Source: Bacteroidota bacterium (lineage in GTDB: Bacteria; Bacteroidota; Bacteroidia; Bacteroidales; Paludibacteraceae). From it: a stretch of DNA of 64,000 bases. Both the position numbers and the translations under genes were made by a program. Shown piece by piece: positions 5,928-24,874 of this stretch. Positions within the stretch are counted from its first letter, which is position 1, and each line of letters begins with the position of its first letter. Below the pieces are notes generated by a model. It did not search any database, had not been told where the DNA came from, and was given only the letters and a program-made list of their open reading frames with translations. The stretch spans positions 124,001-188,000 of the forward strand of contig JAJYBB010000003.1 of NCBI GenBank assembly GCA_021779195.1. Reading direction: 5' to 3'.

Positions 5928-7184
5928 TTAAACGCGAAACGCTTTTGCTTTCCGTTCTATTTCAGAAGGAGAAATTTTGTGCTTAGCAGCTACTTTTCTC
6001 CAATTGGAAACAGCCCGAATTACGTCATCTTTTATTTCTGCAGCACGGTTATCAGATAGCAAATAGTAAGGAGCAGTTTTCATAACCAAATCAATATCCA
6101 ACGAATTATCTTCTTCATCGATATTTAGTTTTAATCCCGTTCCTGTTTCGTTAGCATTAATATCAAATGCAGGAGATAGAGTCCAACCGCTTTCTGTATA
6201 AAGAAACCCGTGATTCCTCAAATGATCATCAGTATTGGAAACGCAAACAGAAAAGAGCACTCTACGGAAAAGTTCTTCCAGATTTGCAGTTGTATCTGCA
6301 CATTCAGACTTAATAAATGAAACTAAATCCAAATAACTCACGCCACTGTCTGCATCGTCTCCGTCCGTTCGTTGTAGCAGTGTCATTGCCGATGCATAAT
6401 GTATCCGTTTTTTGTCTTCAGTTCTGTCAAAGCGTTGAGATAAATAAGTGTGATAAGGTGAAGCAAACTTCTTTATAAAGGCATTTGGAACTGCCATTTT
6501 AGCTTGAATGGCTAATTCATGAACAACCATTTCCCACAACCCTACATCCGAATCATCCTTTTTGCTTGGAAATTTTGCAATCCATTGTTTTCCGTTTGTA
6601 TCAACAACATCTGCTTTAGGACGAGCACCACCTAACGATGATCCGGGAGCAATGAGTTGATTAATCCATTTCAGGGAAGCTTCATCTAATTCGTCTGCAT
6701 TCTTTTCATATTGTTCTACTGCATATTCAAGATCCCTCAATGAAGTCCAAGGTGGAGCTGCCAGGCGTTGATCATTATTCAGAAATTCATCCTCTTCGCT
6801 CTCTTTAAAACGGAGTCCCCCCATGCGATGACTATCGTGTACACCCAATAAAAAATCAATCCCAAATAAAGTGCGAGGTTCTGTTTTCTCAATTTTAGAC
6901 AAAAGAATTTCCCTGCGTTTCATTAATAGTTGTCCCCATCTGTCAGGTGAGGAATCCTTGAAAATACCGAAATTATCATTTGAGGACGCATAATGTAACC
7001 CTGAGAAAAGAGGCAATTCCGGATCAATGGAAATACCGATCTTTATCCATTCATTGTCATATTCAAAAGAATACACAGCTTTGCCCCGAAGAGAAGCAAA
7101 ATACAATTTCCCGATCAATTGAGGTGAATCGAGCATATACCAATCCGCATACACAAGTATTTCTTTTTCTTTATTCTGTTTCAT
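5928..7184 (-). CDS. hipA: HipA-family serine/threonine kinase toxin
   Basis: Probable toxin of a type II toxin-antitoxin pair. In the family, HipA phosphorylates an aminoacyl-tRNA synthetase (GltX for E. coli HipA) or related targets and halts translation. The 418-residue protein has an N-terminal subdomain (about 5-125), a nucleotide-loop motif SSLGGARPKA (182-191), the ATP-contacting lysine in WIAKFPS (K204), the catalytic NTDDHLRN (D319, H321) and the Mg-binding LSPAFDIN (D341). All key residues are present, so it should be active. It lies 6 bp downstream of the antitoxin gene, in the usual hipBA order, inside a segment bounded by ssrA and a degenerate copy of its 3' end. Target unknown. 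Confidence 0.9.
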   Translation of the reverse strand: MKQNKEKEILVYADWYMLDSPQLIGKLYFASLRGKAVYSFEYDNEWIKIGISIDPELPLFSGLHYASSNDNFGIFKDSSPDRWGQLLMKRREILLSKIEKTEPRTLFGIDFLLGVHDSHRMGGLRFKESEEDEFLNNDQRLAAPPWTSLRDLEYAVEQYEKNADELDEASLKWINQLIAPGSSLGGARPKADVVDTNGKQWIAKFPSKKDDSDVGLWEMVVHELAIQAKMAVPNAFIKKFASPYHTYLSQRFDRTEDKKRIHYASAMTLLQRTDGDDADSGVSYLDLVSFIKSECADTTANLEELFRRVLFSVCVSNTDDHLRNHGFLYTESGWTLSPAFDINANETGTGLKLNIDEEDNSLDIDLVMKTAPYYLLSDNRAAEIKDDVIRAVSNWRKVAAKHKISPSEIERKAKAFRV

Positions 7185-7190
7185 AACGAA

Positions 7191-7568
7191 TTAGTCAAAT
7201 TTAGGTTTCTCAGAATTTCCCTTATCAATAACATGATCAATAGCTGATTCTATTTTTTTCTTTTTCGGAGCTCTTTTCTTTACAATCAGTCCGGCATCCT
7301 GAATCTGTCTGCCTACCGGATCTTTGTCTGCTATTAATAATAAATCATCTTCAAGCCGTAAAACAGATAATACCTGCAAATAGCTACCCAATGAAACCGA
7401 TGGAGAACCATCTTCTATACTTCCCAACGTAGATGTAGCAATACCAGCTCGCTCAGCCATAGAGCGAATGGATAGCTTTCGGCGTAAACGGGCTAACTTA
7501 ATATTCTCACCTAAGGTGGCAAGGATATTTTTCTGTTTCTGAATGTAATTTGTTCCTTTTGATTTCAT
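7191..7568 (-). CDS. hipB: HipB-like antitoxin, Xre-family regulator
   Basis: A 125-residue DNA-binding protein with an Xre/HTH_3 domain at about residues 20-75 (RLRRKLSIRSMAERAGI then ATSTLGSIEDG). It should bind HipA, neutralise it and repress the operon. The C-terminal tail (about 95-125) is rich in Lys and longer than in E. coli HipB, with RAPKKKKIE. The first gene of the pair; a -7 box (7588-7595) and a TGATATATCA palindrome just upstream suit autoregulation. Recognition rests on the fold and on being paired with hipA. Confidence 0.85.
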   Translation of the reverse strand: MKSKGTNYIQKQKNILATLGENIKLARLRRKLSIRSMAERAGIATSTLGSIEDGSPSVSLGSYLQVLSVLRLEDDLLLIADKDPVGRQIQDAGLIVKKRAPKKKKIESAIDHVIDKGNSEKPKFD

Positions 7569-8960: not shown

Positions 8961-11729
8961 TCATCCTTTCATACGGTTTACGTAGTTGGTCGGGCTTTCG
9001 TTGAAATATTCCCTGAAACATTTGGTGAAATACGACGGCGAGGAAAATCCGGTTTCGTAAGCTATTTCAGAAATCGATTTTTCGGATGAAACCAACAGTT
9101 TTTCAGCCGCTTTCAAACGAATAATCCGGACCAGTTCGTTGGGGGCGTAATTGGTCAGCGATTTAATTTTGCGATACAGTTGTACTCTCGAAAGCCCCAG
9201 ATTTTTACCAATATCGTCTACATTCAAATCGCTGTCAATCAGGTTATTTTCTACTATTTTACGGAATTTTCCCATAAAGGTTTTATCTATTTCGCTGATG
9301 GTTTCCTTTTTTTCGCCAAATGAGAAATGAGTTCGAAAAGCCTCTTTCACCTTTTCACGGTTTTCAATCAGCTTGCGGATGCGGATTTTCAGGATTTCTT
9401 CGTTGAAAGGCTTGGTAACATAGGCATCTGCCCCACTTTCGAACCCGACAACCTTTTGTTCATCCATCGAAAAGGCAGTCAGCAAAATGACCGGAATATG
9501 GCTGGTACTTAATTCATCTTTTAGTGTTCGGCACAATTCAAAGCCATCCATTCCATCCATCTTTACATCGCTGATAATCAGATCTGGCACATATTTTCGA
9601 GCTTTCAACAACCCTTGCTGACCATTGATTGCTTCCAGAATTTCATATTCGCCGCCGAGCAAACTCCGCACATAAGTTCGCACATCAGAATTATCCTCCA
9701 CCAGCAACACCAAAGGCTTTTTGCTTTCGGGCGACGGTTCTTTTGTCTCATCCTCCTCCGAACCTTCGGTCACTAGCACATCATCCGACCGCAAATGACT
9801 GCTATCGAGCACAGGATATTGCTCAGTGGCGGCGATATTTTTCTGACTGTACGGCATTGTAACCATAAAGGAGGTTCCACGACCTTCGCTGCTTTCCACT
9901 TCAATGGTTCCGTTGTGTTGTTCCACGAGCATTTTGGTTATAGCCAACCCGATGCCTGAACCTTCCACGCGACTATTAACCCTATAAAACCGGTCGAAAA
10001 CCTGATGAATATGCTGTTCGGAAATTCCGGGACCGGTATCTGAAACTGTTATACAGGCTGCATCTTCCCCGTTTATTTTCGATTTGGACAGCGAAAGTTT
10101 GACGGTTCCGTTCTCAGGTGTAAACTTCAAAGCATTGGAGATCAAGTTGTAAACGATTTTCTCCATTTTATCCGAATCAAACCAAAGCGTAAAATCCTCA
10201 TTGATTGCCGAAAAAGTGAAATGAACATGTTTCTTTCGTGCCAGTTCACGGAAAGATTCATAAATTTCTGAAAGAAAAGACTTCAGATCGCCCAGTGTGA
10301 AAAACATCTGCATTTTTCCGTTTTCAAACCTTCTAAATTCGATGATCTGATCAATGAGTTTCATCAAAATATGAATATTTCTATGCATCAGACGGGTCAT
10401 TTTCAGTCCTTCATTACTAAGTGTTTCATTTTCAGTCAACCAGTCGAGTGGTCCATGAAGCAAAGTGAGTGGTGTCCGAAACTCGTGCGAAATGTTAGTA
10501 AAAAAAATCAACTTGGACTGAGTGGCTTCTTCCAGATTTTTCGAAAGCACCATCAACTGATCTTTTTGTTGCGAAAGTTCTTCTTTCTGTCGATTGATGG
10601 CGATATTTGTGGATTCCAGCAGCTTATTGGTTCTATTTTTTGATCGATATGCTCTGAAAAGTAAAATCATCATCACCAGAATAAGAAACAGAACAACAAA
10701 AGAGCCTACCAGCAAGGTTCGTTGTGTACTGTATTTTTCAAGATTACGGTTAAGTACTTCGTTCAACTGATTGATACGGTACTGATGATCCAGAATCTGA
10801 TCAGTTTGAAGCTTAATTACTCTTGCATTTGTTTTATCCACCACTGCCGTATACAGCATATTTTCTTTCTGGAATGGTTCTTTATTCAGAATATGAACCG
10901 CAGTTTGAATCGCCTTTTCGCCTCCGGTAGGATAAATAAAAGTTGCATCCAGTACTCCGTTTATAACTTTCTGAATTCCACCATCGGATCCTGGCAGGGC
11001 ATCGATCCCCAGCAAAAGTGGTTTCCGAATACCACTTACCTGCTTCAGTGCCTCATAAGCTCCGGTTGCCATTTCGTCGTTATGTGCAAAAATCAAATCG
11101 ACAGGGATTTTTTGCTGAAGAAATCCGGTCGTTTTTTCACGGGCAGTCTTGCGTAACCAAGCGCCATCTGCCTGATAAACAATATGTATATCCGGATAAC
11201 CAGCCAAAATACTTTTAAATCCGTTGTGACGTTCGAGATCGGGCGTAGAACCTTTCAATCCGCGAATCTCCACGACATTTCCTTTGCCGTTAAGCAAATT
11301 CACCGCATAAACGCCTACTTCACGCCCAATCTGATAGTTGTCGGCTCCTACAAAAGCCGTGTAATTTTCTGAGTTAATTTTCCGGTCGACCAGTATCACG
11401 GGAATGCCTTCCTGCATGGCTTTTTCAATCACCGGCGTGAGCGGAACCGCTTCATTCGGCGCCACAATAATCAAATCCACTTTATCGGCAATAAAGCTTT
11501 CGATATCGCGAATTTGTTGTTGATTACTGTCGTATGCGGTTTTAATTCTGACTTCTATTTTGGGATAGAAAGAAGCTTCCCGAGTCATCTCGTTGTTCAT
11601 TGTCCGTCGCCAGGCATCGTCGCTGCATTGCGAAACTCCAATTACTTTTAGGTGGTTGGAATTTTCCTTTGAACATGAACTAAAAAGAAAAACCAGAAAA
11701 AATATGCCTATAAAATGAATTTTATTCAT
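8961..11729 (-). CDS. Hybrid two-component system regulator with LacI-like sugar sensor (fructan PUL)
   Basis: A one-polypeptide sensor kinase and transcription factor (HTCS). Order: signal/lipobox-like N-terminus (C19), periplasmic sugar-binding domain of the LacI/ribose-binding type (about 28-300), TM segment (338-358), coiled linker, HisKA with phosphorylatable H415 in ISHEFRTP, HATPase with N532 and DTGPGIS/GSGIGLAI, receiver domain with D721 in ISDVKM, and an AraC-type DNA-binding domain (about 830-920). The domain set matches Bacteroides thetaiotaomicron BT1754, whose sensor binds fructose. It ends the PUL gene string, 121 bp after the fructokinase gene, but has its own promoter. Likely targets are the two operator modules at 16008-16068 and 25122-25182 (inference). 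Confidence 0.93.
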   Translation of the reverse strand: MNKIHFIGIFFLVFLFSSCSKENSNHLKVIGVSQCSDDAWRRTMNNEMTREASFYPKIEVRIKTAYDSNQQQIRDIESFIADKVDLIIVAPNEAVPLTPVIEKAMQEGIPVILVDRKINSENYTAFVGADNYQIGREVGVYAVNLLNGKGNVVEIRGLKGSTPDLERHNGFKSILAGYPDIHIVYQADGAWLRKTAREKTTGFLQQKIPVDLIFAHNDEMATGAYEALKQVSGIRKPLLLGIDALPGSDGGIQKVINGVLDATFIYPTGGEKAIQTAVHILNKEPFQKENMLYTAVVDKTNARVIKLQTDQILDHQYRINQLNEVLNRNLEKYSTQRTLLVGSFVVLFLILVMMILLFRAYRSKNRTNKLLESTNIAINRQKEELSQQKDQLMVLSKNLEEATQSKLIFFTNISHEFRTPLTLLHGPLDWLTENETLSNEGLKMTRLMHRNIHILMKLIDQIIEFRRFENGKMQMFFTLGDLKSFLSEIYESFRELARKKHVHFTFSAINEDFTLWFDSDKMEKIVYNLISNALKFTPENGTVKLSLSKSKINGEDAACITVSDTGPGISEQHIHQVFDRFYRVNSRVEGSGIGLAITKMLVEQHNGTIEVESSEGRGTSFMVTMPYSQKNIAATEQYPVLDSSHLRSDDVLVTEGSEEDETKEPSPESKKPLVLLVEDNSDVRTYVRSLLGGEYEILEAINGQQGLLKARKYVPDLIISDVKMDGMDGFELCRTLKDELSTSHIPVILLTAFSMDEQKVVGFESGADAYVTKPFNEEILKIRIRKLIENREKVKEAFRTHFSFGEKKETISEIDKTFMGKFRKIVENNLIDSDLNVDDIGKNLGLSRVQLYRKIKSLTNYAPNELVRIIRLKAAEKLLVSSEKSISEIAYETGFSSPSYFTKCFREYFNESPTNYVNRMKG

Positions 11730-11850: not shown

Positions 11851-12804
11851 TTATGCTGGTTTTTTTACTCTTGATAGCAATATCTCCGGCAATTTCGGCA
11901 TTGCTCCATGTTGTGTGCATACGAATGCCGAAACATCAACAGCCAACTGATGGGCATCGCTAATGCGTTGACTTCGCAGTAATGCTGAAACAAATGCGGC
12001 TGTAAATGAATCGCCTGCACCAACCGTATCGGCAACTTCTACCAACGGTGTTGGTTTAAATGAAGTTTCATTCTGAGTAACAACATAACTTCCCTGAGTT
12101 CCTTTTGTAAGTACAACGATTTCCAAAGCACAGTTGTGAAGTAACTGATTGCAGATTTCTAACTCGCTTTTTGATTCCCATCCGAAAAGTTGCCCAACAA
12201 TCAGAATTTCGTCATCATTTATTTTCAGTATATTACACCGGTCAAGAGCATGTTCTATAAGTTCCAAGGTATAAAAATGCTGGCGTAAATTGATATCGAA
12301 TATCTTAAGTGCAGTTTCAGGTACACAATCTAAAAAACGATTAATATTGGCACGTGAAACGCTGCTGCGTTGAGCCAGTGAACCAAAACAAACAGTTTCT
12401 GTCTTACGCGCAAGAGCCTCCATTTCGGGCGTAAAAGGAATGTTATCCCAGGCAACATTCTCACAAATTTCATATTGTGGAATCCCTTTTTCATCCAGTG
12501 TTACCTGTACGGTTCCTGTTTCAAAGGGGGTAGTTTCAATTTGGTATTTCAACTCTTTTTTACTTAGATTTTCAATGATCTCATGCCCCAAATCATCATT
12601 TCCTATTGCACTTACAGCATATCCTTCGAACCCAAACTGAGACACATGATAGGCGAAATTTGCCGGTGCGCCACCCAGTACTTTTCCGTTGGGAAATACA
12701 TCCCACAATATTTCTCCAATTCCTACTATGACGCTTTGACCTCCGGTACCTAAAGAGGAATTTGTAAGACCATGGTTTTGTGTTTTTTCTTGCGTATCTT
12801 TCAT
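11851..12804 (-). CDS. Fructokinase, PfkB/ribokinase family
   Basis: Phosphorylates imported fructose to fructose 6-phosphate in the cytoplasm. The 317-residue protein has the N-terminal PfkB signature GGAPANFAYHVSQFG (about 44-58) and the C-terminal signature DTVGAGDSFTAAF (259-271) with catalytic base D265. Substrate assignment comes mainly from context: it is the third gene of the GH32-MFS-kinase operon, in the same order as the fructan PUL of B. thetaiotaomicron (BT1757-BT1759). The first 23 residues are a polar extension without family equivalent; a later start is possible, but the reading begins cleanly 53 bp after the MFS gene. Confidence 0.9.
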   Translation of the reverse strand: MKDTQEKTQNHGLTNSSLGTGGQSVIVGIGEILWDVFPNGKVLGGAPANFAYHVSQFGFEGYAVSAIGNDDLGHEIIENLSKKELKYQIETTPFETGTVQVTLDEKGIPQYEICENVAWDNIPFTPEMEALARKTETVCFGSLAQRSSVSRANINRFLDCVPETALKIFDINLRQHFYTLELIEHALDRCNILKINDDEILIVGQLFGWESKSELEICNQLLHNCALEIVVLTKGTQGSYVVTQNETSFKPTPLVEVADTVGAGDSFTAAFVSALLRSQRISDAHQLAVDVSAFVCTQHGAMPKLPEILLSRVKKPA

Positions 12805-12857: not shown

Positions 12858-14198
12858 TCACAATCCCAATTCTTCTTCAATCTGTTCCAATGATTTTCCT
12901 TTGGTTTCGGGAATCCATATTTTTACAAAAACGAAGGCAATAACGCTGAATAATCCAAAAATACCAAACAGATAAGCCAACCCAAGCGAACCTTGTATGA
13001 CCGGGGCAAAATAAACAGTTAGGAAAGTGCAAAGCCAACTAACGGCAGTTGAAAACGACATAGCCAGCCCTTTAATCCGGTTCGGATATATTTCGGAAAT
13101 AATAACCCACATTACCGGTGCAAATGAAGCAGCAAAGAACGAAATATAAACCAACAAGGCAATCAACACACCGATTCCGTTTTGAACCGGTTTGGCAAAT
13201 TCCCATGTGAGATAAGCCAACGAAGCAATCATACCCACGGCTCCCCAAAGTAATAATGTTTTTCTGCCTTTTTTATCCACCAACCACAAAGCCACGATGG
13301 TCATCAAAAAGTTTACCAGCCCCACTATCATAGCTTGCATCATCGAATCGCCTTTGGCCGAACCGGCAGCATGAAAAATTTCGGGTGAAAACATAATCAC
13401 GGCGTTTATGCCTGTTATTTGCTGTAAGGCTGCAATTAACGTCCCTATCAGCACAATTTTTCCGGTTTTCCCTTTAAATAGTTCACTGAACTTCATCCTA
13501 TCTTTGCTTTTATCGGCTAAAAGCATCTTTTCCATTTCGGGAAGTTCTTCGTCAACCAGTCTTTTCCCTCCGGTTCTGTTCAACACGTTGATTGCTTCCT
13601 CTTTCTGCCCGTGAGCCAATAACCAGCGTGGACTTTCGGGGAATTTTGCAATAAGGAATATTAAATACAAAACGCCGAATATGCCCGGAATTGCAAGCAT
13701 GTATCGCCACGCATTGTTGCCAAAACCAATGAGCAAATAATCGAAAATATAAGCCAATACAATACCAATGGTGATGGCGAACTGATTGAATGAAACCAAC
13801 CGCCCACGGCTTTTTGCCGGTGAAATCTCAGAAATATACATGGGCGCAACAACCGAAGTGGCTCCAACTGCCAAACCGGATAATAAGCGGAATAGAATTA
13901 AAATAGTTGCCGATTCGGCCACGGCGCAACCCAACGCTGAAATTATGTAAAGCACGGCTGTGGTTATCATTACTTTTTTACGTCCAAACTTTTCGGTGAA
14001 ATTTCCCGTAAATAAGGCACCGACTAAGCAACCGATGGTGAGTAAAGCTGCGACAGTGCCTAAACCGCTGTCGGTTAATGAAAACTGGCCCTTAATCATG
14101 TCAACGGCACCTGAGATTCCCGCCATGTTTAGCCCGAAAAGTAAACCGCCGTTGATTGCAACGAAGGTAGTCCAATATAAATACTTGTTATTCGACAT
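12858..14198 (-). CDS. MFS sugar:H+ symporter, probable fructose importer
   Basis: A 446-residue inner-membrane protein of the sugar-porter family with 12 predicted TM segments. Signatures: GCLVGALFTGNFTEKFGRKK (TM2-3 loop, GR-K motif), RLLSGLAVGATSVVAPMYISE (TM4, with PMYISE), PESPRWLLAHGQ after TM6, LQQITGINAVIMFSPEIF in TM7, and PETKGKSLEQIEEEL at the C-terminus. It starts 9 bp after the periplasmic GH32 gene and precedes fructokinase, so it most likely brings monosaccharide fructose into the cytoplasm, as BT1758 is thought to do. Specificity is inference from context. Confidence 0.92.
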   Translation of the reverse strand: MSNNKYLYWTTFVAINGGLLFGLNMAGISGAVDMIKGQFSLTDSGLGTVAALLTIGCLVGALFTGNFTEKFGRKKVMITTAVLYIISALGCAVAESATILILFRLLSGLAVGATSVVAPMYISEISPAKSRGRLVSFNQFAITIGIVLAYIFDYLLIGFGNNAWRYMLAIPGIFGVLYLIFLIAKFPESPRWLLAHGQKEEAINVLNRTGGKRLVDEELPEMEKMLLADKSKDRMKFSELFKGKTGKIVLIGTLIAALQQITGINAVIMFSPEIFHAAGSAKGDSMMQAMIVGLVNFLMTIVALWLVDKKGRKTLLLWGAVGMIASLAYLTWEFAKPVQNGIGVLIALLVYISFFAASFAPVMWVIISEIYPNRIKGLAMSFSTAVSWLCTFLTVYFAPVIQGSLGLAYLFGIFGLFSVIAFVFVKIWIPETKGKSLEQIEEELGL

Positions 14199-14207
14199 TG
14201 TATTGAT

Positions 14208-15974
14208 TTATTTTATGTTGTTAACTTTGATATTTTCAACTTTCCATGCTGCATCTTCACCGTAAAATTTGAGTTGATTCATAACTTCAGTAGGGAAAAA
14301 CAACGAAGTCATTGCTATTTCACCTTTGTTGATGAATATTTCTGCTGAAGCTTTATCAACCAATAAACGAACCTGATAAATATCTTTTTTTACCAATGGA
14401 GCATTCATTCCGAATTTAAACTTGTCGCTGAAATCGATACGACCGCTTTTACGCCGGTCGATGCTGAAGAATTTTGTACTGAGATCGAAATTGAATTTAA
14501 GCGATTCTCCTTTCGTGTTTTGAAGTTCAAATCCAAATACATTAGCAACCTGCGGTTTGATGGTCATTTCTATTTCGTAACAGCCATTATTTGTTTTTAG
14601 TAATGGAGAGATCAGCGCTTGCTTATTTATCTCCATATCCGGTTTCTCAGAGATATTTGTTCTTAGCGTATTCATTTCGGCAACAGGGAAACTATTCAGA
14701 ACCAAATGTTCTCCATTGTTTACTAACGTTAGTTGACGCGGTATAGTCATTGCACTCCTGAAATTTACTGTCGGAACCTGGTTGGCATAATCCCAGTTGC
14801 TCATCCAGCCCAAAAACAATCGGCGGCCATCCTGTTTAGGTACATTCCCCCAGGTAACTCCGGCGTAATTGTCTCGTCCGTAGTCGATCCAGAGCGGGTA
14901 GGGGAGAGCATCAGCCTTGAATGTTTTTCCATCGAAATTGCCGATAAAATATTGCGTGGCAGAGCCTCCGTTTGGTCCGCCGGGATTGATGCTTACTATC
15001 AACACCCATTTCGTTTTTCCCTGATAAGCGAGTGGGAATAAATCGGGACACTCCCAAACTCCCGCATGTGAACCAATTCCGTCGCCAAATTCGCTCAGGC
15101 GTGTCCAATGTTTTAAATTTGGAGACCCATAAAATGTTACTGTTTGTTTGGTGGCCAGTGCCATGACCCATTGGTTGGAAACTTCGTTCCACGAAACTTT
15201 GGGATCGCGAAAATCGGTGATACCCGGATTTGGCAAAACCGGATTGTGGGCATATTTGGTGAAAGTTCGTCCTTTGTCGGTACTGTAAGCAATGCATTCC
15301 TGCTGGGTTTTACCGTTAGCAGTATAAATAGCAATCATAGCATTTTTCCCAAAGCCGGCGGTGTTGTTAACATCGATTACCGCACTACCCGAAAAAATGG
15401 CACCTAAACTATCGGGCATAAGAGCCGTTGGTAAATAAGTCCACGAAACCAAATCGGTGCTTACAGCATGTCCCCACGACATGTTTCCCCACATGGAACC
15501 AAAAGGATTGTATTGAAAAAACAGATGGTACTCGCCGTCGAGATATACCATCCCATTCGGGTCGTTGGTCCAGCTATGTTCGGGCGTGAAATGAAATTGA
15601 GGGCGGTATGTCTCGTTGAAGTTGAAATCAAATTTATCGGATGGTTTGATGTTGTCAATTCCGGAAATTTTATCAGTCGTATTGAGGAATGAAAGGGTGA
15701 TTTTTTTACCCATCCATTTTTTTACATCCAACGGAACCCAATAGTCGATGTGATTTTTAGCCAGATGAACATCGTAAGCCGGTTGATCTTTCGATTCAGA
15801 GGAAGAAACCTGTATCTTAACTTCCGGTGCACTTTCTTCTATTGGCAACAGCAGGTAGCTTGATTGAATCTGATAATCTACCTGAATATTTTCTCCGGTA
15901 GATTTTTTTTGGGAAATGCAACTTATACTGATTAGGAAAAGTGCAATCAGCATTGAAATAATTGGTTTTTTCAT
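14208..15974 (-). CDS. GH32 fructan hydrolase lipoprotein (exo-fructosidase type)
   Basis: Hydrolyses beta-fructosidic bonds, probably releasing fructose in the periplasm. The chosen start (588 residues) gives a lipoprotein signal MKKPIISMLIALFLISISC, Cys19 being lipidated; a longer reading from 16010 would begin inside the -7 box and is unlikely. An N-terminal beta-domain (about 30-120, as in other Bacteroides GH32 enzymes) precedes the five-bladed propeller with all three acids: nucleophile D138 in WTNDPNG, D257 in FRDPK and acid/base E308 in WECPDLF. The C-terminal beta-sandwich follows from about residue 440. First gene of the GH32-MFS-fructokinase operon, driven from 16008-16068. Confidence 0.95.
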   Translation of the reverse strand: MKKPIISMLIALFLISISCISQKKSTGENIQVDYQIQSSYLLLPIEESAPEVKIQVSSSESKDQPAYDVHLAKNHIDYWVPLDVKKWMGKKITLSFLNTTDKISGIDNIKPSDKFDFNFNETYRPQFHFTPEHSWTNDPNGMVYLDGEYHLFFQYNPFGSMWGNMSWGHAVSTDLVSWTYLPTALMPDSLGAIFSGSAVIDVNNTAGFGKNAMIAIYTANGKTQQECIAYSTDKGRTFTKYAHNPVLPNPGITDFRDPKVSWNEVSNQWVMALATKQTVTFYGSPNLKHWTRLSEFGDGIGSHAGVWECPDLFPLAYQGKTKWVLIVSINPGGPNGGSATQYFIGNFDGKTFKADALPYPLWIDYGRDNYAGVTWGNVPKQDGRRLFLGWMSNWDYANQVPTVNFRSAMTIPRQLTLVNNGEHLVLNSFPVAEMNTLRTNISEKPDMEINKQALISPLLKTNNGCYEIEMTIKPQVANVFGFELQNTKGESLKFNFDLSTKFFSIDRRKSGRIDFSDKFKFGMNAPLVKKDIYQVRLLVDKASAEIFINKGEIAMTSLFFPTEVMNQLKFYGEDAAWKVENIKVNNIK

Positions 15975-16007
15975 GGATATAAAAATTGTAGTTAACGATT
16001 CACGTTG

Positions 16008-16068
16008 CAAAAATAGATATGAATAACTCTATTCGATGTCAATTTTGTTGCATCATCGTGTAATTTTG
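16008..16068 (-). promoter_or_regulatory. PUL operon promoter and operator, copy 1
   Basis: The minus-strand -7 box TATTTTTG (16015-16008) is followed, upstream for the gene, by two half-sites written on the plus strand as CAATTTTG (16040-16047) and TAATTTTG (16061-16068), spaced with a 21-bp period around TTGCATCATCG. There is no -33 TTG at the right distance, as expected for an activator-dependent promoter. A nearly identical module with the same 25-bp spacing precedes susC. The likely activator is the AraC domain of the local hybrid regulator. Confidence 0.65.
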
Positions 16069-16091: not shown

Positions 16092-18554
16092 TCATAGTAG
16101 AATCTTATCTGCGAAAGACAGATTCTGTCCTGTTACCTTCACTATGTAAACTCTATTTTTGATTAATTGAATTCGACCAGTGACAGGGGCTGAGGTGAGC
16201 GATATGATTTTTTGACCCCAAAGATTATAAATCGAAATATTTGAATTTGACGGAATATTCTTATAAATCAGATTATTACCATTAGTATAAAGTTTTACAT
16301 TGTTATCAATTGTAGGTGGTGTAATTGCAGTAGCAGTTTGCGAAGAGTCCAAATTCCATGCTTGAATGGATGCTGCATGAGTAGAGCCACCCGTCGAGAA
16401 TGCCTCTATATCATTTGCATTTGGATCAGTTGGGAATACTCGTATTGAAAATGCATACTGGTTACTGATAAACACATCCATAATAGAATGATCTATAAAA
16501 ATATGAATTCTGATTGTATCACCTATAGAAGGTGCTTGAGGCAAAACAGACTGATAAAGCCCATTAAAACTACCTGCATCGTTAGATAAACGAGCTATAT
16601 TTGTTGCATCCACTGTAAAATTATTAGTAGAAGGAGAATAATAAATTGAGATAAAGTTATTCCCGTTTTTTCGAACATGAAAGCCAAAACTTTGCGCACT
16701 CGAAACAATAAAATTTCCATCAATTTCAACTGTTTTTCCACTGACAGGCGAAAGTGAAAGTGATCCTGAAATATCCTGATTGGAAATAGTATAAGCAGAG
16801 GAAATTACACGCATATTTTGTGTCCCCGAATAGGGTTGTTGGATCAGATTATTGTTTGCATCTATTGTCCACTCGCGAGGTAAACTAAAAAGATGTGCCC
16901 AACCCAAGTTATAGTTATTTTGTGATGACAATAAATCAGGCACAATTCCTATGGCTATTGTTTTACCATTTTGATGCAAAATGGAAGGTGATAATAATCC
17001 ATAGCCATTACTCCCAAAAGCGCCTAATTCAACTTTTTTAGGAACAGAAGAAGATGGATTGAAAGTGCCGTCACTATTTATCGTTCCAACCCAATAAAGT
17101 GTCGTAACACCTTGCACTCCTCCAATGGTACTTACTAAAAACAACCACTTTCCATTTGGCATGGGTTCAATGACCGGCATTTCCCAAAATGTCCCATAAT
17201 CGGAACTTGCAGCCTGATAGAAAATTCGACCATCGTTGCTCCATGTTTGTGTTGTTGGATTATATTGTTGCAATGTTGTTGCACCTACATTGTTTTTTGA
17301 AGTTCCCACAATCATGTAGTAAATGCCGTTGGACGTGAAAATATGTGGATCTCTGAAATCGCTGCTAAGTCCGATCGGACTATTAGGAATAATCGGATTG
17401 CGAGCATCTTTGTTCCAGTTAATTAAATCATCTGCTACCGGTTCAGCCTGATTGATACTTGCTTTAGAATAATCTACTCCTGTATAGAAAATATTTGGTT
17501 TACCTCCTGTCAACACAGGATCGGTAAATACACAACCTGACCATGCACCTTTTATATCGTAAATGTTGGTGTTGGATATAGCAATTTTTTGTTCAGTCCA
17601 ATTCAGTAAATCGTTACTGGTAAGATGACCCCAATGCAATTTTCCCCAATAAGGACCATTGGCATTTTTCTGAAAGAAAAGATGATACAACCCATTATAG
17701 TAAACCAGCCCATGCGGTTCATTTGTCCAGTTTGCTGCCGGTAATCCATGAAAGGAAGGTCGTTGAATATCGTTTGCAAACCGAGTGGAAGGAATAGATA
17801 AATCGGCTGCATTTTGTGGGGCTATATAAGCCAACTCGGCACTGGTTAAAATTCTTGAATAGATTTTGATTTCATCAATCAATCCGTTGATTGTGCTTGT
17901 TAGAAAAATACCCGAGGACATATCCGTAAAAGATTTCCCAATTATAAAGGCATTACTCCCAACGTTAATTATTGTTCCCGGAAATGAAGATTCGGCAATT
18001 AATACTCCATTTCGATAAAGATAAACCATTTGAGTTTGAGTATTGATAACCGCTGATATGTTTACCCAACCATAAGTAGGAAAAATTGAAGGATCATAAC
18101 AAGTTATTTTTGTCCCGTTTATATATGCAGCAAAACCGTAACGTCCAGTTGCATTAATTACAAAAGCAAATCCTGTTTTCTGTACATCGCTCATGTTTCC
18201 GGCAATGAATGTTTCGGTTGTAACATTATTATTTGGATCCATAACCGGATAAGTTTCTATTGCACACCAAATTGAAGCAGTCAACGCTGTCGTACTTAAT
18301 GCTGAAGCATTAATTGCAGCGCTGCAATAAGTAGAATAACCATCTAATCGTAAAGCATTACCCACCGCGCCGGGTTTGCTTTCGGGAGGATTGAGATTAT
18401 TTTGAACTGAGAATGTTTGACCTGAGATGGTTTCTGTAATAAGATTCCCGTTTAATTCCATAGGAAAATATGCTACGAGAGAAGGATCAGCTGCATTTGC
18501 AGGGAGTATAAAAACATACAAGCCCAGTATCAAAGAAATTAAAGATGATTTCAT
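16092..18554 (-). CDS. LamG-GH32 fructan hydrolase with T9SS-type C-terminal domain
   Basis: An exported fructan-active enzyme of about 820 residues. Order (numbering from 18560): signal peptide ending ANA (to ~23), a LamG/concanavalin-like domain (25-245), GH32 propeller (265-580), GH32 beta-sandwich (590-735), and a last 65-70 residues ending VYIVKVTGQNLSFADKILL, a type A sorting domain of the type IX secretion system. D404 in FRDPH and E460 in FWEMP keep the transition-state and acid/base residues, but the nucleophile motif is WTNEPHG, with E281 in place of Asp. By position after the surface binding protein it corresponds to the surface levanase slot of known fructan PULs. Whether it is active, and its linkage preference, cannot be read. 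Confidence 0.9.
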   Translation of the reverse strand: MKSSLISLILGLYVFILPANAADPSLVAYFPMELNGNLITETISGQTFSVQNNLNPPESKPGAVGNALRLDGYSTYCSAAINASALSTTALTASIWCAIETYPVMDPNNNVTTETFIAGNMSDVQKTGFAFVINATGRYGFAAYINGTKITCYDPSIFPTYGWVNISAVINTQTQMVYLYRNGVLIAESSFPGTIINVGSNAFIIGKSFTDMSSGIFLTSTINGLIDEIKIYSRILTSAELAYIAPQNAADLSIPSTRFANDIQRPSFHGLPAANWTNEPHGLVYYNGLYHLFFQKNANGPYWGKLHWGHLTSNDLLNWTEQKIAISNTNIYDIKGAWSGCVFTDPVLTGGKPNIFYTGVDYSKASINQAEPVADDLINWNKDARNPIIPNSPIGLSSDFRDPHIFTSNGIYYMIVGTSKNNVGATTLQQYNPTTQTWSNDGRIFYQAASSDYGTFWEMPVIEPMPNGKWLFLVSTIGGVQGVTTLYWVGTINSDGTFNPSSSVPKKVELGAFGSNGYGLLSPSILHQNGKTIAIGIVPDLLSSQNNYNLGWAHLFSLPREWTIDANNNLIQQPYSGTQNMRVISSAYTISNQDISGSLSLSPVSGKTVEIDGNFIVSSAQSFGFHVRKNGNNFISIYYSPSTNNFTVDATNIARLSNDAGSFNGLYQSVLPQAPSIGDTIRIHIFIDHSIMDVFISNQYAFSIRVFPTDPNANDIEAFSTGGSTHAASIQAWNLDSSQTATAITPPTIDNNVKLYTNGNNLIYKNIPSNSNISIYNLWGQKIISLTSAPVTGRIQLIKNRVYIVKVTGQNLSFADKILL

Positions 18555-18636: not shown

Positions 18637-20064
18637 TTACTGCAAAAAACTAATAGCATTTTGAGTCAGTTTTTCAATATTTGCCTGATATACATTTGTA
18701 CAGGTATAGGGAGCAACCCCAGAACTTTGATTAAATTCATACGCTGATAATCCTATAGCTAAACATTTTCCGGGATAAGTTGCAGTTGGTTGGAAATAAA
18801 CGATTCCACCACAACAATAATCAGCAACTTGTCCCCACGTTGCCATCACAGTTGCATTATTTTCAATTTCAAATGCTCTGACAACATTGTCGCCATCAGC
18901 AGGAATCTTGTAGCCATAAGAATTTAAATCCCACATACTATTATGGTTTTCTTTCAATCCAGAACCTTCGAGAGGTACTGTTGTCCAAGAGAAACTAGAA
19001 TAATCCATAGTAAGTCCGGCAAAAAGAGGGCTGTTCGTATAGTCGTATTTTGTTGACTGACCTGCACCAATAATAATATTCGCCGCCCATGTATCCGGAT
19101 TAAATCCAGCAGTACCTGCTCCCAAAATACCTGGTTTTCGGGTGGTGCGCCCTAAATCAACAACGTATTGAGTAGCAAAGGTTGTTAACAATAAATTGCC
19201 CCCAGTTTGATAATAATATGTAATTTGGCTCAACACATTACTGCTCTCCAATTGAGCAGGTACAGCATCAGACATTGCATTGTCTATATTAATCCAAATA
19301 ACACTGTATTGAGATAAATTAATTACTTTGTTTTGGATATCATAGGTAGAAATTACATCGCCGCTTGGATAAGTTGACACAAACCAATTTGCAGCTGCAA
19401 TTTCTTCATTATTACCATTCTGTTGGAGGTCAGTAAGACTTTTGAAATAGGTAAGATATGCATACTTAACGCTGTTTACTGATGTATACACATAATTGGA
19501 TGTAGCTGTAGCTGTTTTCGTGCGAATGCCAAATGTGTATTTCTGGGTTGCTACAACATTGCTTACAGTGTATGATGTTGCAGTTGCAGGAACTGTCACT
19601 ACCTGGCCTCCAAACGAAATTTCTAACTGGGTAGCTGTATTAATTGCTGGTAAATTCCAAGTAAGGACAATGCTTGAATTTTGTAAATCTCTTGCACCTA
19701 AAAAATTACTTACTGGATTTGGTCCAGCAATAGTAATTCTTGTTGTTACACCATCTGATATTTTTCCATCTGGTGTATTAACTTTTACAGTGATAGCATG
19801 TTCAATATTTACAATTGGGTTGATAATTGTATCCGATATAGCATTGTTTTTCAACGTATCAATATTCCCATCATAGTTTAATATGACTTTGTAGGTGCTC
19901 ACGCCCTTAGGAGCATCCCAAGTAACAATAATGTTATTATTACTTCCTTGCACCGCTTTAATATTGGTTGCAGGAGTTGCGCTTGGCAATTCGGCATATT
20001 TCATATCCTGACAAGATACAAAGCCCAAAATGACAAGAAAGAAAAATATATATTTTGTTTTCAT
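18637..20064 (-). CDS. Surface glycan-binding lipoprotein of the fructan PUL (BT1761/DUF4960-like)
   Basis: A 475-residue lipoprotein: MKTKYIFFFLVILGFVSC with Cys18. Two fibronectin-III-like beta-domains follow (about 33-110, with VTWDAPKGVSTYKV, and 115-200, with LTWNLPAINTATQLEI), then a larger C-terminal domain (about 205-475) resembling the DUF4960 type. It lies between SusD and the surface GH32, the place held by the levan-binding protein BT1761 in B. thetaiotaomicron. Expected role: hold fructan chains at the cell surface next to the SusCD complex. Ligand and linkage specificity are not deducible. Confidence 0.8.
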   Translation of the reverse strand: MKTKYIFFFLVILGFVSCQDMKYAELPSATPATNIKAVQGSNNNIIVTWDAPKGVSTYKVILNYDGNIDTLKNNAISDTIINPIVNIEHAITVKVNTPDGKISDGVTTRITIAGPNPVSNFLGARDLQNSSIVLTWNLPAINTATQLEISFGGQVVTVPATATSYTVSNVVATQKYTFGIRTKTATATSNYVYTSVNSVKYAYLTYFKSLTDLQQNGNNEEIAAANWFVSTYPSGDVISTYDIQNKVINLSQYSVIWINIDNAMSDAVPAQLESSNVLSQITYYYQTGGNLLLTTFATQYVVDLGRTTRKPGILGAGTAGFNPDTWAANIIIGAGQSTKYDYTNSPLFAGLTMDYSSFSWTTVPLEGSGLKENHNSMWDLNSYGYKIPADGDNVVRAFEIENNATVMATWGQVADYCCGGIVYFQPTATYPGKCLAIGLSAYEFNQSSGVAPYTCTNVYQANIEKLTQNAISFLQ

Positions 20065-20105: not shown

Positions 20106-21761
20106 TTATTTATAAATACCTCCAGAATTATCAGATTCTGAAATTGGTATAGGCAAATAAATTGAACTGGCTGACAATTGTGCCGTATTAAGCCATGGTC
20201 TCAATGCTTTTTCTTGTAGATAGTACGTATTCATTACGTCAGTGGCTACTCCCCACCGAACTAAATCGAACCAACGATGTCCTTCCATGGCAAACTCTAG
20301 ACGATATTCCATGCGTACAGCCGAGCGGGCATAAGCCTGAGTCCAACCTGTGGAAGGATAGTCCCCTACTTTGTAACTTGCTTTTGTCATATCAATATCT
20401 ACAGGACTGTAAAATGGGTCAACACTGCGTGCTGCCTTTTCTCTCACTTGATTAATTAATTGGCGAGCATCATCTAAATTGGAGTTGCTTTCAATTTCAG
20501 CTTCAGCTTTCCACAATAACACTTCAGCGTAGCGAATAACATTAAAGCCTAACGATGAAGCCCCCCATGGGAATCCTTTTACCATATCAGGGGAGTTTGG
20601 ATCTATCATTCTTTTTTTGTTCGGATGATCACCGTAATCACCGTAATCACGACACCAAACTGTTGTAAAAGTGTATCCGCGGAATGGCATTCCGATACGT
20701 CCTAAAGTAAAATCTAACCGTGGATCAACATTTCCACCAAAACCCACAGTATCCATTGCGCTGTTAAAATCTGTACCGTTTAAATAGGGCAATCCATTTG
20801 CATCTGTTCGGAATGCATTTGCCAAATTTTGACTTCCTATATAAAAGTCATCGCCATTTCCGAATAAGTTTCCTGCAGAGTATGTTGTATTTAATAAATC
20901 ACCCCAGTTAATTTGTGCGTTATTGTTGCTTGTTGAGAATTGGATAGTGAATACAGCTTCTTTTTTATTATTGAAAGCAATTTTAGACATATCCAGATAA
21001 TTATTATACAATGCATATTGGTTTGAACCGATTACTGTATTTGCATAGGTAATTGCACCTGCATAATCTTTTCGTTCCATGCTTAATTTACATAAATAAG
21101 CTGCAGCAGCATATTTGTTGAAGCGACCTGCCTCTGCTTGACTTATTGGCAAATTGTTTAATGCAAAAGTGAAGTCACTTACAATTTTATCATAAATCTG
21201 ATCTCTAGTAAATTGAGTAGGACTGGCCGTTGTTGCGGCGGTAACAGAATTCGAATTTTCGTCAATATAAGGGATATTCTGAAATATACGAATTAAATCA
21301 AAATAGAAGTGTCCTCGTATAAGCTTTAATTCTGCTGTTAATTCTGTAAGATTTGCAGGATGAAGTGTTTTCAATATGTTCAGTGTGTTATTCACGCGGG
21401 CAATTCCGTAGTAATCGTTTCTCCATTTGTTCAATGCTACAGGATTATCACTTGTAACATTACCAAGTTCCAATTGTGTCAGATAAGCTTCCATGGATAG
21501 GGAACCTCCCCCTTTATACGCGTCATCCGAACGGACATCGAATACCCAGTTAGAGGAAGGTCCATCAAATGCTTCATTATTCCCGAAAAAATGACATTGA
21601 AGTCCGGCATATGCTGAAGCCATTAACGCCTCAACGCTTGTAGTATCCATTTGATTAACAGTAAACTGGCCATAAGGTTCTTTGTCCAACAGGTCAGAGC
21701 ATGATGCAAACAACATCAATCCTGCAAAGATTGGAAAGAAAAAAATATTTTTTGTTTTCAT
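20106..21761 (-). CDS. susD: SusD/RagB-family outer-membrane glycan-binding lipoprotein
   Basis: Lid and binding partner of the SusC transporter. The 551-residue protein has a lipoprotein signal ending LFASCSDLLDKEPYG (Cys21). The alpha-helical TPR-like SusD core follows, with the typical IYLPIPISE near the end and, before it, YRLEFAMEGHRWFDLVRWG, the family's best conserved block. It starts 50 bp after susC and is followed 41 bp later by the surface glycan-binding protein gene. Ligand, by context, is fructan oligosaccharide. Confidence 0.95.
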   Translation of the reverse strand: MKTKNIFFFPIFAGLMLFASCSDLLDKEPYGQFTVNQMDTTSVEALMASAYAGLQCHFFGNNEAFDGPSSNWVFDVRSDDAYKGGGSLSMEAYLTQLELGNVTSDNPVALNKWRNDYYGIARVNNTLNILKTLHPANLTELTAELKLIRGHFYFDLIRIFQNIPYIDENSNSVTAATTASPTQFTRDQIYDKIVSDFTFALNNLPISQAEAGRFNKYAAAAYLCKLSMERKDYAGAITYANTVIGSNQYALYNNYLDMSKIAFNNKKEAVFTIQFSTSNNNAQINWGDLLNTTYSAGNLFGNGDDFYIGSQNLANAFRTDANGLPYLNGTDFNSAMDTVGFGGNVDPRLDFTLGRIGMPFRGYTFTTVWCRDYGDYGDHPNKKRMIDPNSPDMVKGFPWGASSLGFNVIRYAEVLLWKAEAEIESNSNLDDARQLINQVREKAARSVDPFYSPVDIDMTKASYKVGDYPSTGWTQAYARSAVRMEYRLEFAMEGHRWFDLVRWGVATDVMNTYYLQEKALRPWLNTAQLSASSIYLPIPISESDNSGGIYK

Positions 21762-21811: not shown

Positions 21812-24800
21812 TTAAAAATTTGCGTGAAGTCCAATCGTAAATGTACGAGGGATGGGATAAGTTCCATTATCTATTCCTGAAGCAGAAATCACAGGACTCA
21901 ATCCTGAGTATTTTGTGATAGTAAATACATTGTCTACTTGCCCGAACAAATCAAAAGATTTGATTCCCATTTTTTGTATAGCCGGAATTAGCATAAATTT
22001 GTAGCTCAATTTTAAATTCTTCATTTGTACATATGAACCGTCTTCCATAAAGTAAGTTGAAGTGCGCATTTCATTATTGTTGTCTAATAACGACAATGCA
22101 GGAACGGAAGCATTTGTATTTGTCGGAGTCCAGGCATTTAAAGTAGCTGTGCCACGGTTATCATATACATTATCATAAGTCATGAAGTCTAATTCTCGTT
22201 TTGTAGTATTGTAGATGTTAAATCCTAATTCGCTGCTTATCAAAGAACTTAATGTGAAGTTTTTGTAAGAGACTCTTAGATTTAGTCCCATAATAAGCGA
22301 AGGATTTGGATCTCCAATTACAGTTTGATCTAAAGAGTTAATAACTCCATCATGATTCAAATCTCTGTACATGATTCTTCCTGGAGCTGCGCCTGGTTGT
22401 GTGGCATGATTTAAAACCTGATCTGCAGTTTTGAAAATTCCATCGGCAACATATCCATAAAATACTCCGATTGGTTGACCTACAATATTTCGTTGATCAC
22501 CACCCGTTTCGGTGACTGACGAATTGAGAGCTACTAATTCATTTTTATAATGAGCCAAATTGAACGATGCACCCCATGAAAAGTCTCCCGTTTTCTTGCT
22601 ATTATAATCCATAACCAACTCATATCCTTTATTGCTCATGGTACCGGTATTCATCCATGTAGAAGCATTTTCGCCCAGTACTGAAAGGGTTGGAGGAATA
22701 GTAAGCATGTTAGTGGTTCTTTTGTTGTAATAATCAAAACTTATATTCAATGCATTTTTGAAAAAAGCAGCATCAAAACCTAAGTTCAACTGAGTAGTTG
22801 TTTCCCACTTCAGATTGGTATTACCTGTGCCTGATATAATAATTCCGGTAGTAGAGCTATTCGTTCCATTTAATGGATAAGCACCATTGCCAACGTTATA
22901 AGCATAATTACTATAGGTGGCATAATTACCAATTGAAGAATTACCGGTTTGTCCCCAGCCTGCACGGAATTTCAAATAATCGAGTCCATCAATCTTGGGC
23001 ATAAAAGGTTCTTCAGTTATTCTCCATGCTCCTGAAAATGCAGGAAATATACCTGAGTTATTTGTTTTACCCAAACGGGAACTTGCATCACGACGTACAG
23101 TTGCAGACAATAAATAGGTGTTGTTATAATTGTAATCTGCTTTCCCGAACAAGGAGAATAACGACCAATCCGATTGATTTCCTCCATTTGTTTGAGTCCC
23201 GCTACCAGCATCCAAAACCATATAGTTTGGATCTTGAAATGCATAATTCAGGCGCATGGCACTAAATTGACCTGATCCATAATTAATAGCTTCGGATCCG
23301 GCTAATAGGTTTAATTCATTTTGTCCTTTTTTCAGTTCATAAGTGGCAGTATTTGTCCAAGTCCAGGTATCACCTTGTCCATAGCTATTTATTACGCTAT
23401 TTACGTCGGAACTTACCATTTTAAGATTCATGTCATGATTGAAGTATTGAATATGTTCTATCCCCAAATTGCTTTTTATTGACAATCCTGCTAAAGGTTT
23501 GATTTCTATATAAGTATTACCCAAGATACGCCAGTTTTGGTTTTGATTATTTCTTGCATTATATAACATTTGAACAGGGTTGCCAATATCTGAGCTTGTA
23601 AGTGCCAAAGGATTAGTGAAATTTCCTTTCAAATCTCTGACTGGTATTGCAGGATTCGAACGCATTGCTGTGTAGGGTTCTCCACGGTCACTTTGTGTAT
23701 TAGCTCCAATATTATTCCAGTGCGACAGCATTACATTTTCGCCAATGGATACATATTTCGAAATATTATAGGCAGAGTTAAGACGGGCTGTATATCGTTT
23801 GTAATAGGTATAGTCCATAATACCCTTCTGATTAACATAATTCATCGAGAACATCATGTTTCCTTTATCATTGCCATTTGAAAGGGTGACACCATAATTT
23901 TGCATCCAAACTGATGAATAGATTGCTTTTTGCCAGTCTGTATTGGTAAACGGAACATTTTGATTCCCATTGATATATTGCAAAGGTACCGGGGTTGCGC
24001 CCGAGGCGAATATGGCAGGAACGTTAGGTGACAATCCGGTATTTTTAGCAGCCTGCCAATATACCTGCCCCCATTGCGTAGCATTCAAAACACTGAAATC
24101 TTTTGCAACTGTTTGTAGACCGGAAGAAACGTTTACTTCAACTGAAAGTGGTTTGTTTCCACCTTTTTTGGTGGTGATAATTATTACTCCATTAGCAGCT
24201 CTGGCTCCATAAATAGATGAAGATGATGCATCTTTCAATACCTGAAGTGAAGCAATATCGTTTGTGTTTATTCCACTCATATCATTTGTTGGTACTCCAT
24301 CAATGATATATAGCGGAGTGACATCATTGATAGTTCCTACACCGCGTATTGTAATTGTAGTTGCACCACCACCGGGAGTTCCATCCGTGTTGATTTGAAC
24401 CCCTGCTGCATGTCCTTCTAAGGCTTGTAACACATTCGCATATGGGGCATCTTTCATATCGGCCACTTTTACCACCGAAACTGCACCTGTTAAATCAGCC
24501 TTCTTCTGAGACGTATACCCTGTTACAACTACTTCTTCCATTAACTGGCTATCAGATGCTAATTTGATGTTAATCGTAGAGTTGTTTCCTACTTTGACTT
24601 CTTCTTTTTTCATGCCAAGCATGGTAAAAACTAATACAGCATCGTTACCGGGTACCGTAATTGAATATTTACCATCAATATCGGTAACAGTACCGTTAGA
24701 GGCTCCTTTGACCATAACGGTCACTCCAATTAGCCCTTCTTTACTGTCGGAAGAGCTTACAATTCCGGAAATTGATTTTTGTTGAGCCATTAATGCAATA

Positions 24801-24874
24801 CTAAAACTGCAAAAAAGAGCTAAACTCCATACTTTTCGCAACACACTGCTTTGAAATTTGCTTTTTTCATTCAT
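21812..24874 (-). CDS. susC: SusC/RagA-family TonB-dependent transporter (fructan)
   Basis: Imports oligosaccharides across the outer membrane with energy from TonB-ExbBD. The 1,020-residue protein has a signal peptide ending LMAQQ (about 30), a carboxypeptidase-regulatory-like domain (ISGIVSSSDSKEGLIGVTV, about 35-110), a TonB-box region near EEVVVTGY (about 114), plug domain with the family marker LKDASSSSIYGARAANGVI, and a 22-strand barrel ending in a C-terminal Phe (HANF). First gene of the operon susC-susD-binding protein-GH32. Long leader of about 240 nt if transcription starts at 25115. Confidence 0.96.
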   Translation of the reverse strand: MNEKSKFQSSVLRKVWSLALFCSFSIALMAQQKSISGIVSSSDSKEGLIGVTVMVKGASNGTVTDIDGKYSITVPGNDAVLVFTMLGMKKEEVKVGNNSTINIKLASDSQLMEEVVVTGYTSQKKADLTGAVSVVKVADMKDAPYANVLQALEGHAAGVQINTDGTPGGGATTITIRGVGTINDVTPLYIIDGVPTNDMSGINTNDIASLQVLKDASSSSIYGARAANGVIIITTKKGGNKPLSVEVNVSSGLQTVAKDFSVLNATQWGQVYWQAAKNTGLSPNVPAIFASGATPVPLQYINGNQNVPFTNTDWQKAIYSSVWMQNYGVTLSNGNDKGNMMFSMNYVNQKGIMDYTYYKRYTARLNSAYNISKYVSIGENVMLSHWNNIGANTQSDRGEPYTAMRSNPAIPVRDLKGNFTNPLALTSSDIGNPVQMLYNARNNQNQNWRILGNTYIEIKPLAGLSIKSNLGIEHIQYFNHDMNLKMVSSDVNSVINSYGQGDTWTWTNTATYELKKGQNELNLLAGSEAINYGSGQFSAMRLNYAFQDPNYMVLDAGSGTQTNGGNQSDWSLFSLFGKADYNYNNTYLLSATVRRDASSRLGKTNNSGIFPAFSGAWRITEEPFMPKIDGLDYLKFRAGWGQTGNSSIGNYATYSNYAYNVGNGAYPLNGTNSSTTGIIISGTGNTNLKWETTTQLNLGFDAAFFKNALNISFDYYNKRTTNMLTIPPTLSVLGENASTWMNTGTMSNKGYELVMDYNSKKTGDFSWGASFNLAHYKNELVALNSSVTETGGDQRNIVGQPIGVFYGYVADGIFKTADQVLNHATQPGAAPGRIMYRDLNHDGVINSLDQTVIGDPNPSLIMGLNLRVSYKNFTLSSLISSELGFNIYNTTKRELDFMTYDNVYDNRGTATLNAWTPTNTNASVPALSLLDNNNEMRTSTYFMEDGSYVQMKNLKLSYKFMLIPAIQKMGIKSFDLFGQVDNVFTITKYSGLSPVISASGIDNGTYPIPRTFTIGLHANF

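Follow-up and report, generated by a model that had tools for sequence, protein, structure and literature searches.

The LamG-GH32 protein encoded in the window, i.e. the whole stretch of 64,000 nucleotides analysed here, is probably an endo-acting fructanase, secreted and presumably exposed at the cell surface, that belongs to a levan-PUL-type fructan operon. It would cut fructose polymers of plants or bacteria within the chain and would use Glu281 as nucleophile within the ordinary retaining chemistry of GH32 enzymes. The initial annotation had drawn attention to a Glu at the position of the GH32 nucleophile, and this is borne out: the minus-strand codon GAA encodes Glu281 within WTNEPHG, and D404 (FRDP) and E460 (WEMP) are both present as claimed (Table 1). 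The span then quoted for this motif, 17712-17726, covers TNEPH only. The underlying premise that the GH32 nucleophile is an Asp is true for most of the family but not universally, since endo-inulinases with a Glu, INU2 and EnIA, were already known.

Table 1. Features of the LamG-GH32 gene and of its operon (positions in the window).
Feature	Position	Strand	Basis
Hybrid two-component sensor (HTCS), Peripla_BP_4 sensor domain, BT1754-like layout	8961..11729	-	domain search
PfkB sugar kinase, probable fructokinase	11851..12804	-	domain search
MFS sugar transporter	12858..14198	-	domain search
Asp-type GH32 (WTNDPNG, ECP) with DUF4980, lipoprotein-like start	14208..16010	-	Pfam, alignment
LamG-GH32 gene, 822 aa	16092..18560	-	ORF list and translation; signal peptide without lipobox judged by eye
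Type IX secretion C-terminal sorting domain, weak	16098..16286	-	25.9 bits (cut-off 23), genome search
GH32 C-terminal beta-sandwich (GH32C), residues 592-736	16353..16787	-	Pfam, 79.3 bits (cut-off 21.9)
GH32 beta-propeller (GH32N), residues 271-576	16833..17750	-	Pfam, 189.3 bits (cut-off 22.1); alignment of the model with GH32 structures
Acid/base Glu460, followed by Met461 (almost always Cys in Asp types)	17178..17183	-	alignments
Asp404 codon (FRDP), transition-state stabiliser	17349..17351	-	invariant in alignments
Motif WTNEPHG, residues 278-284	17709..17729	-	sequence
GAA codon of Glu281, the predicted nucleophile, which pairs with INU2 Glu43	17718..17720	-	sequence alignment, model
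LamG (Laminin_G_3), residues 81-244	17829..18320	-	Pfam, 61.7 bits
DUF4960 surface glycan-binding lipoprotein, BT1761-like	18637..20064	-	Pfam; best solved relative 47.1 bits
SusD; closest solved structure is of the BT1762 type	20106..21761	-	242.6 bits
SusC; closest solved structure is of the BT1763 type	21812..24874	-	697.8 bits

The LamG-GH32 protein and its relatives

The assignment of the protein to GH32 is based on its two Pfam domains, both above their curated cut-offs, and on the retained RDP stabiliser and acid/base Glu, the acidic nucleophile position of motif A being held by E281. Regarding its localization, the other surface proteins of the operon look like lipoproteins from their starts, whereas the LamG-GH32 protein may be exported by type IX secretion. 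Its match to Por_Secre_tail exceeds the cut-off in the genome search and stays below it, at 19.4 bits, in the other search; the same domain is matched by 12 of 30 Glu-type members (E 0.001), and the source genome contains 71 matches to the type IX sorting domain.

A first scan of genome contigs with the window protein yielded 10 loci. In an alignment of the window protein with relatives that are 46-69% identical to it, all 11 rows have Glu at the column of residue 281 and keep the other two carboxylates too. Searched as a profile, this alignment gave matches in 3 of 395 genomes of the class set (own genome counted), 10 of 393 of the order, 3 of 395 of the phylum, 5 of 120 of the family and 5 of 15 of another family of the order. 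Once the own genome and repeats are left aside, 22 of the 23 further distinct loci matched in Bacteroidota genomes have Glu, the exception (L081, 107 bits) being an ordinary Asp-type GH32 with NDPNG. The Glu-type LamG-GH32 clade is thus rare but widespread. Its motif reads W[TA]NE[PCSGNT][HYT]G in Bacteroidota, the two residues after NE being variable, whereas the haloarchaeal proteins have WMNEPH[GA]. The replacement of Asn by His described in the initial annotation therefore applies to the window protein and to most members of the clade, but not to all of them.

A broader alignment comprised 30 of 31 frames, L078 being excluded as an apparent copy of L010, whose contig is equally long. Its members were selected by the motif containing the first Glu, without selection for the Asp and the acid/base Glu, and the three catalytic positions are Glu, Asp and Glu in all 30. 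A sequencing error or a pseudogene as the source of Glu281 is rejected by the conservation of this residue across relatives. Besides, one gene cluster carries, directly after its first LamG-GH32, a second and shorter Glu-type LamG-GH32 (L009:12543-14717) with WTNETHG, and with MHDP for FRDP.

As for the domain architecture, LamG was detected in all 30 Glu members scanned and in five further proteins; it was found in none of the 24 Asp-type members whose N-terminal extension exceeds 100 residues and in none of 4 more. In one of the five further proteins, LamG and a Glu-type GH32 are linked to the beginning of an Asp-type GH32. On the plasmid pHTUR01 of Haloterrigena turkmenica, a single 4215-base gene (L091:1413-5627) encodes LamG, a Glu-type GH32 and then an Asp-type GH32, and the corresponding region of Natrinema (L086:9557-13812) is annotated as two reading frames. 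Five of the 30 members are fused to DUF4960, which is the domain of the surface protein that binds glycan in the levan system. In L010, L011 and L012 (e.g. L010:9092-12406) DUF4960 lies in frame ahead of LamG-GH32, and a piece of DUF4960 also precedes Asp-type haloarchaeal GH32s (L092, L093).

Phylogeny of the Glu-type GH32 proteins

A Pfam GH32N search gave matches in 28 of 149 genomes of the order. From these genomes, the relatives and four PDB chains, 82 rows were aligned, in which the nucleophile position is Asp in 54, Glu in 26 (INU2 and 25 clade members), Tyr in one (L067) and Lys in one (L058). As 25 of 103 domain rows had been dropped (low score, short, fragments), including divergent and BT1760-like GH32s, the Asp and Cys counts describe the better-aligned part of the family. 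L067, L058 and L037 are GH32-like and apparently degenerate proteins, with Tyr or Lys at the nucleophile and Lys at the acid/base, and are possibly binding proteins. A tree of 76 rows was obtained after further removal of L067, L058, L057, L066, L056 and the near copy L012_p14894. For a larger set, 11 plasmid regions taken by match and one by accession, from 885 and 555 matching records, were picked for coverage or taxonomy; 17 of their 35 domain rows were added (fragments, near copies and some others being omitted) and degenerate rows were removed, giving 93 rows, 58 with Asp and 35 with Glu at the nucleophile.

In this larger set, and keeping in mind that the counts include related sequences and not independent events, the residue following the acid/base Glu is Met in 30, Leu in 4 and Val in 1 (INU2) of the 35 Glu rows, and Cys in 56, Thr in 1 and Val in 1 of the 58 Asp rows. 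The 34 LamG-GH32 Glu rows, all with Met or Leu at this position, form one clade with a support of 100/95 in a tree from which two motif regions were excluded. They come from Bacteroidota, from Catenovulum adriaticum (two proteins) and from haloarchaea (three proteins; Natrinema and Haloterrigena turkmenica). The proposal of a distinct clade defined by a Glu at the nucleophile position is thereby supported by both the tree and the comparison of NEPHG with NDPNG types that the initial annotation had recommended. Among the Asp-type rows, those closest to the clade belong to haloarchaea and Streptomyces and carry ECP or ECV, and the actinobacterial plasmid loci included here (L088, L089, L094, L095) yielded Asp types only. 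An Asp-type group with GDPNG or GDPCG and with ETP or EVS (L068, frame at 1379, and L010:14896-17142) may be endo-acting too; within the 93 rows, no other Asp-type protein is devoid of the Cys after the acid/base.

In the unrooted tree, INU2 is placed among the Asp-type rows, outside the LamG-GH32 clade. A single clade of all 35 Glu rows, and with it one origin for all Glu nucleophiles, is rejected by the AU test on the 93-row set (p 5.9e-09), the rejection being marginal on the 76-row tree (p 0.0397). Given the position of INU2 and this rejection, the Glu nucleophile therefore arose at least twice in GH32, and the likeness of the window protein to INU2 results from convergence rather than descent.

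Probable activity, operon context and alternatives

INU2 is the endo-inulinase of Aspergillus ficuum (PDB 3rwk/3sc7), whose nucleophile is reported to be Glu43 (PMC5245892; PMC13416181). It shares with the window protein the Glu in W-x-N-E-P, the stabiliser Asp, the acid/base Glu, the fold, the lack of Cys after the acid/base (Val in INU2, Met in the window protein) and the loss of the exo-type NW loop. It differs from it by PNG instead of PHG, by the absence of an aligned LamG, by its separate Glu origin, and by Thr100, to which Ser341 corresponds in the window protein; each of the 11 clade rows displayed has Ser there as well. An AlphaFold2 model of the LamG-GH32 protein built from a 21-row alignment (pLDDT 85.2, pTM 0.80) matches GH32 structures, with their five-bladed propeller and beta-sandwich, with Z up to 40.2, and superposes its residues 262..740 on residues 24..516 of the 3sc7 chain with 2.4 A over 452 residues. 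E281 pairs with INU2 E43 in the sequence alignment, and the predicted model, in which the strand is formed by residues 277-288, would place it at the same position. Another Asp as substitute nucleophile, the finding that would have spoken against Glu281, receives no support from the alignment or from the model.

A second Glu-type enzyme, EnIA from Arthrobacter sp. S37, is described in the review PMC5984348, according to which Glu323 was studied as nucleophile by mutagenesis and E323A and E519A lowered kcat. From this published description only, EnIA (2439 bp; Glu323, Asp460, Glu519) resembles the window protein in having a Glu nucleophile backed by mutation, and its gene size and Glu position fit a long N-terminal extension as in the window protein. 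Its motif F is printed as ECMP in the review, which may mean Met for Cys, and it has PNG rather than PHG. EnIA may be a characterised member of the LamG-GH32 clade.

Glu281 would accordingly be the nucleophile by its alignment with INU2 Glu43 and by the reported role of Glu323 in EnIA, and the catalytic cycle would be the retaining double displacement performed by the GH32 propeller. In this scheme, Glu460 would protonate the glycosidic oxygen and Glu281, in place of Asp, would attack C2 to form the fructosyl-enzyme intermediate; Asp404 would stabilise the transition state, and water would free the product. The neighbouring SusCD would then import the products, and the Asp-type GH32, which presumably is exo-acting, would complete their breakdown. 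Endo-action is suggested by the missing Cys behind the acid/base, by the missing exo Trp loop, and by the position of the gene in the operon. Indeed, a Cys is reported to follow the acid/base in inulinases except endo-inulinases, the change of Cys to Val being peculiar to the latter (PMC13416181). The Ser in place of INU2 Thr100 speaks against this reading, and so does the replacement, in many clade members, of the Trp of WG by Met or another residue, since this Trp was essential in the exo-inulinase KcINU1 (PMC7545266).

On a single strand, the genes follow the order HTCS, PfkB, MFS, Asp-type GH32, LamG-GH32, DUF4960, SusD and SusC. The parts of BT1754-BT1763 as named in PMC7782687 form the same set, the endo-levanase being replaced. 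In this levan-PUL-like operon, the gene occupies the slot of BT1760, the endo-levanase of Bacteroides thetaiotaomicron. BT1760 and the window protein are alike in operon position and presumed cell-surface job; as far as BT1760 is described, they differ in its Asp nucleophile, its lipoprotein nature, its type of C-terminal domain and the near lack of sequence similarity. At E 0.001, the BT1760-like C-terminal domain PF16346 has no match in the window protein, and it is weak in 4 of 30 members. The neighbouring Asp-type GH32 shares with the window protein the GH32 fold family and the layout of the triad, with NDPNG, ECP and DUF4980 instead of LamG. Elsewhere in the window, a HipA-like kinase gene (5928-7184, minus strand) and a small ORF (7191-7568, minus strand) possibly form a toxin-antitoxin pair.

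An inulin-type (beta-2,1) substrate seems somewhat likelier than levan. A surface endo-levanase, with the same Glu chemistry acting on beta-2,6-linked levan and the job of BT1760 taken over by non-orthologous replacement, is a possible though improbable alternative. It would account for the BT1760-like slot and neighbours, and among solved structures the best relatives of SusC, SusD and DUF4960 are the levan-system chains BT1763, BT1762 and BT1761, which favours beta-2,6. No inulin SusCD is known to us from the PDB for comparison. An endo-inulinase is, moreover, not needed for inulin use in the case of Bt-8736, which is reported to import inulin without a surface endo-enzyme (PMC5967196). Against the endo-levanase, the Glu-nucleophile GH32s described in the literature consulted are endo-inulinases (PMC13416181, PMC5984348), the sequence match to BT1760 is very weak (7znr, E 8.3e-05), and the BT1760 structure 6r3r reaches a Z of only 31.3 against the model, below the 39.5 of 3sc7.

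That the protein is an exo-acting fructosidase or a sucrose hydrolase carrying Glu by chance is unlikely. By E-value and Z, the solved structures nearest to it are of invertase/S6PH types (7vco, Z 40.2, tied with 3sc7, as rows within 1 are), and among NCBIfam families scrB matches it best, though below the cut-off. However, the Cys after the acid/base is lost, and the exo-type NW.YA loop is absent from the LamG-GH32 clade rows shown in the alignment, as it is from INU2. The C239A and W334L variants of the exo-inulinase KcINU1 are reported to have no detectable activity (PMC7545266), so that mere loss of this Cys and Trp would not leave a working exo enzyme. In the same line, an Asp-type GH32 able to do the exo job lies nearby in all 10 loci of the first scan.

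The two other options raised in the initial annotation, altered chemistry and a binding protein, are not the best reading, Glu nucleophiles being known in endo-inulinases. A transferase that moves fructosyl groups or forms difructose anhydride, with Glu altering the fate of the intermediate, is very improbable: the levan fructotransferase structures 4fff/4ffg are among the matches of the model (Z 37.6-37.8), but their mutants are named D54N, so that the nucleophile is seemingly Asp, and no clade feature or other supporting evidence points to transfer. A fructan-binding protein that lost catalysis is hardly credible, for although the nucleophile is substituted and the Cys and Trp reported as essential in exo-inulinase (PMC7545266) are lost, the three carboxylates are invariant in the 30 aligned members, some of them just 27-33% identical to the window protein, and INU2 and EnIA are reported as active with the same Glu.

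Novelty and significance

A Glu nucleophile in GH32 endo-inulinases is already known. No description of the LamG-GH32 Glu clade was found in the open-access literature searched for the motif, for GH32 with laminin G, for SusC/LamG/endo-inulinase and for EnIA. Among the titles and abstracts of the open-access matches listed, NEPHG did not appear as a GH32 motif, four of the matches had WMNEPNG, and laminin G occurred in none. The new parts would hence be the branch, the co-varying Met/Leu, the LamG domain and the separate Glu origin, with the proviso that EnIA may prove to be a characterised member.

Our opinion is evenly divided on the wider view that these proteins form an old subfamily across Bacteroidota, Gammaproteobacteria and haloarchaea, in which Glu and Met/Leu were rebuilt independently of the fungal endo-inulinases as a repeated route to endo-action, and which, in the fructan operons of Bacteroidota, stands in for the BT1760 type and leaves the cell through type IX secretion. 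If the signature of a Glu without Cys marks endo-action, GH32 endo-fructanases would become separable from exo-fructosidases by sequence. Besides, the repeated origin of Glu makes the effect of an Asp/Glu swap on the pocket and on chain-internal cutting testable by reciprocal mutation. It also points to the existence, in Bacteroidota fructan operons, of a second class of fructanases acting at the surface.
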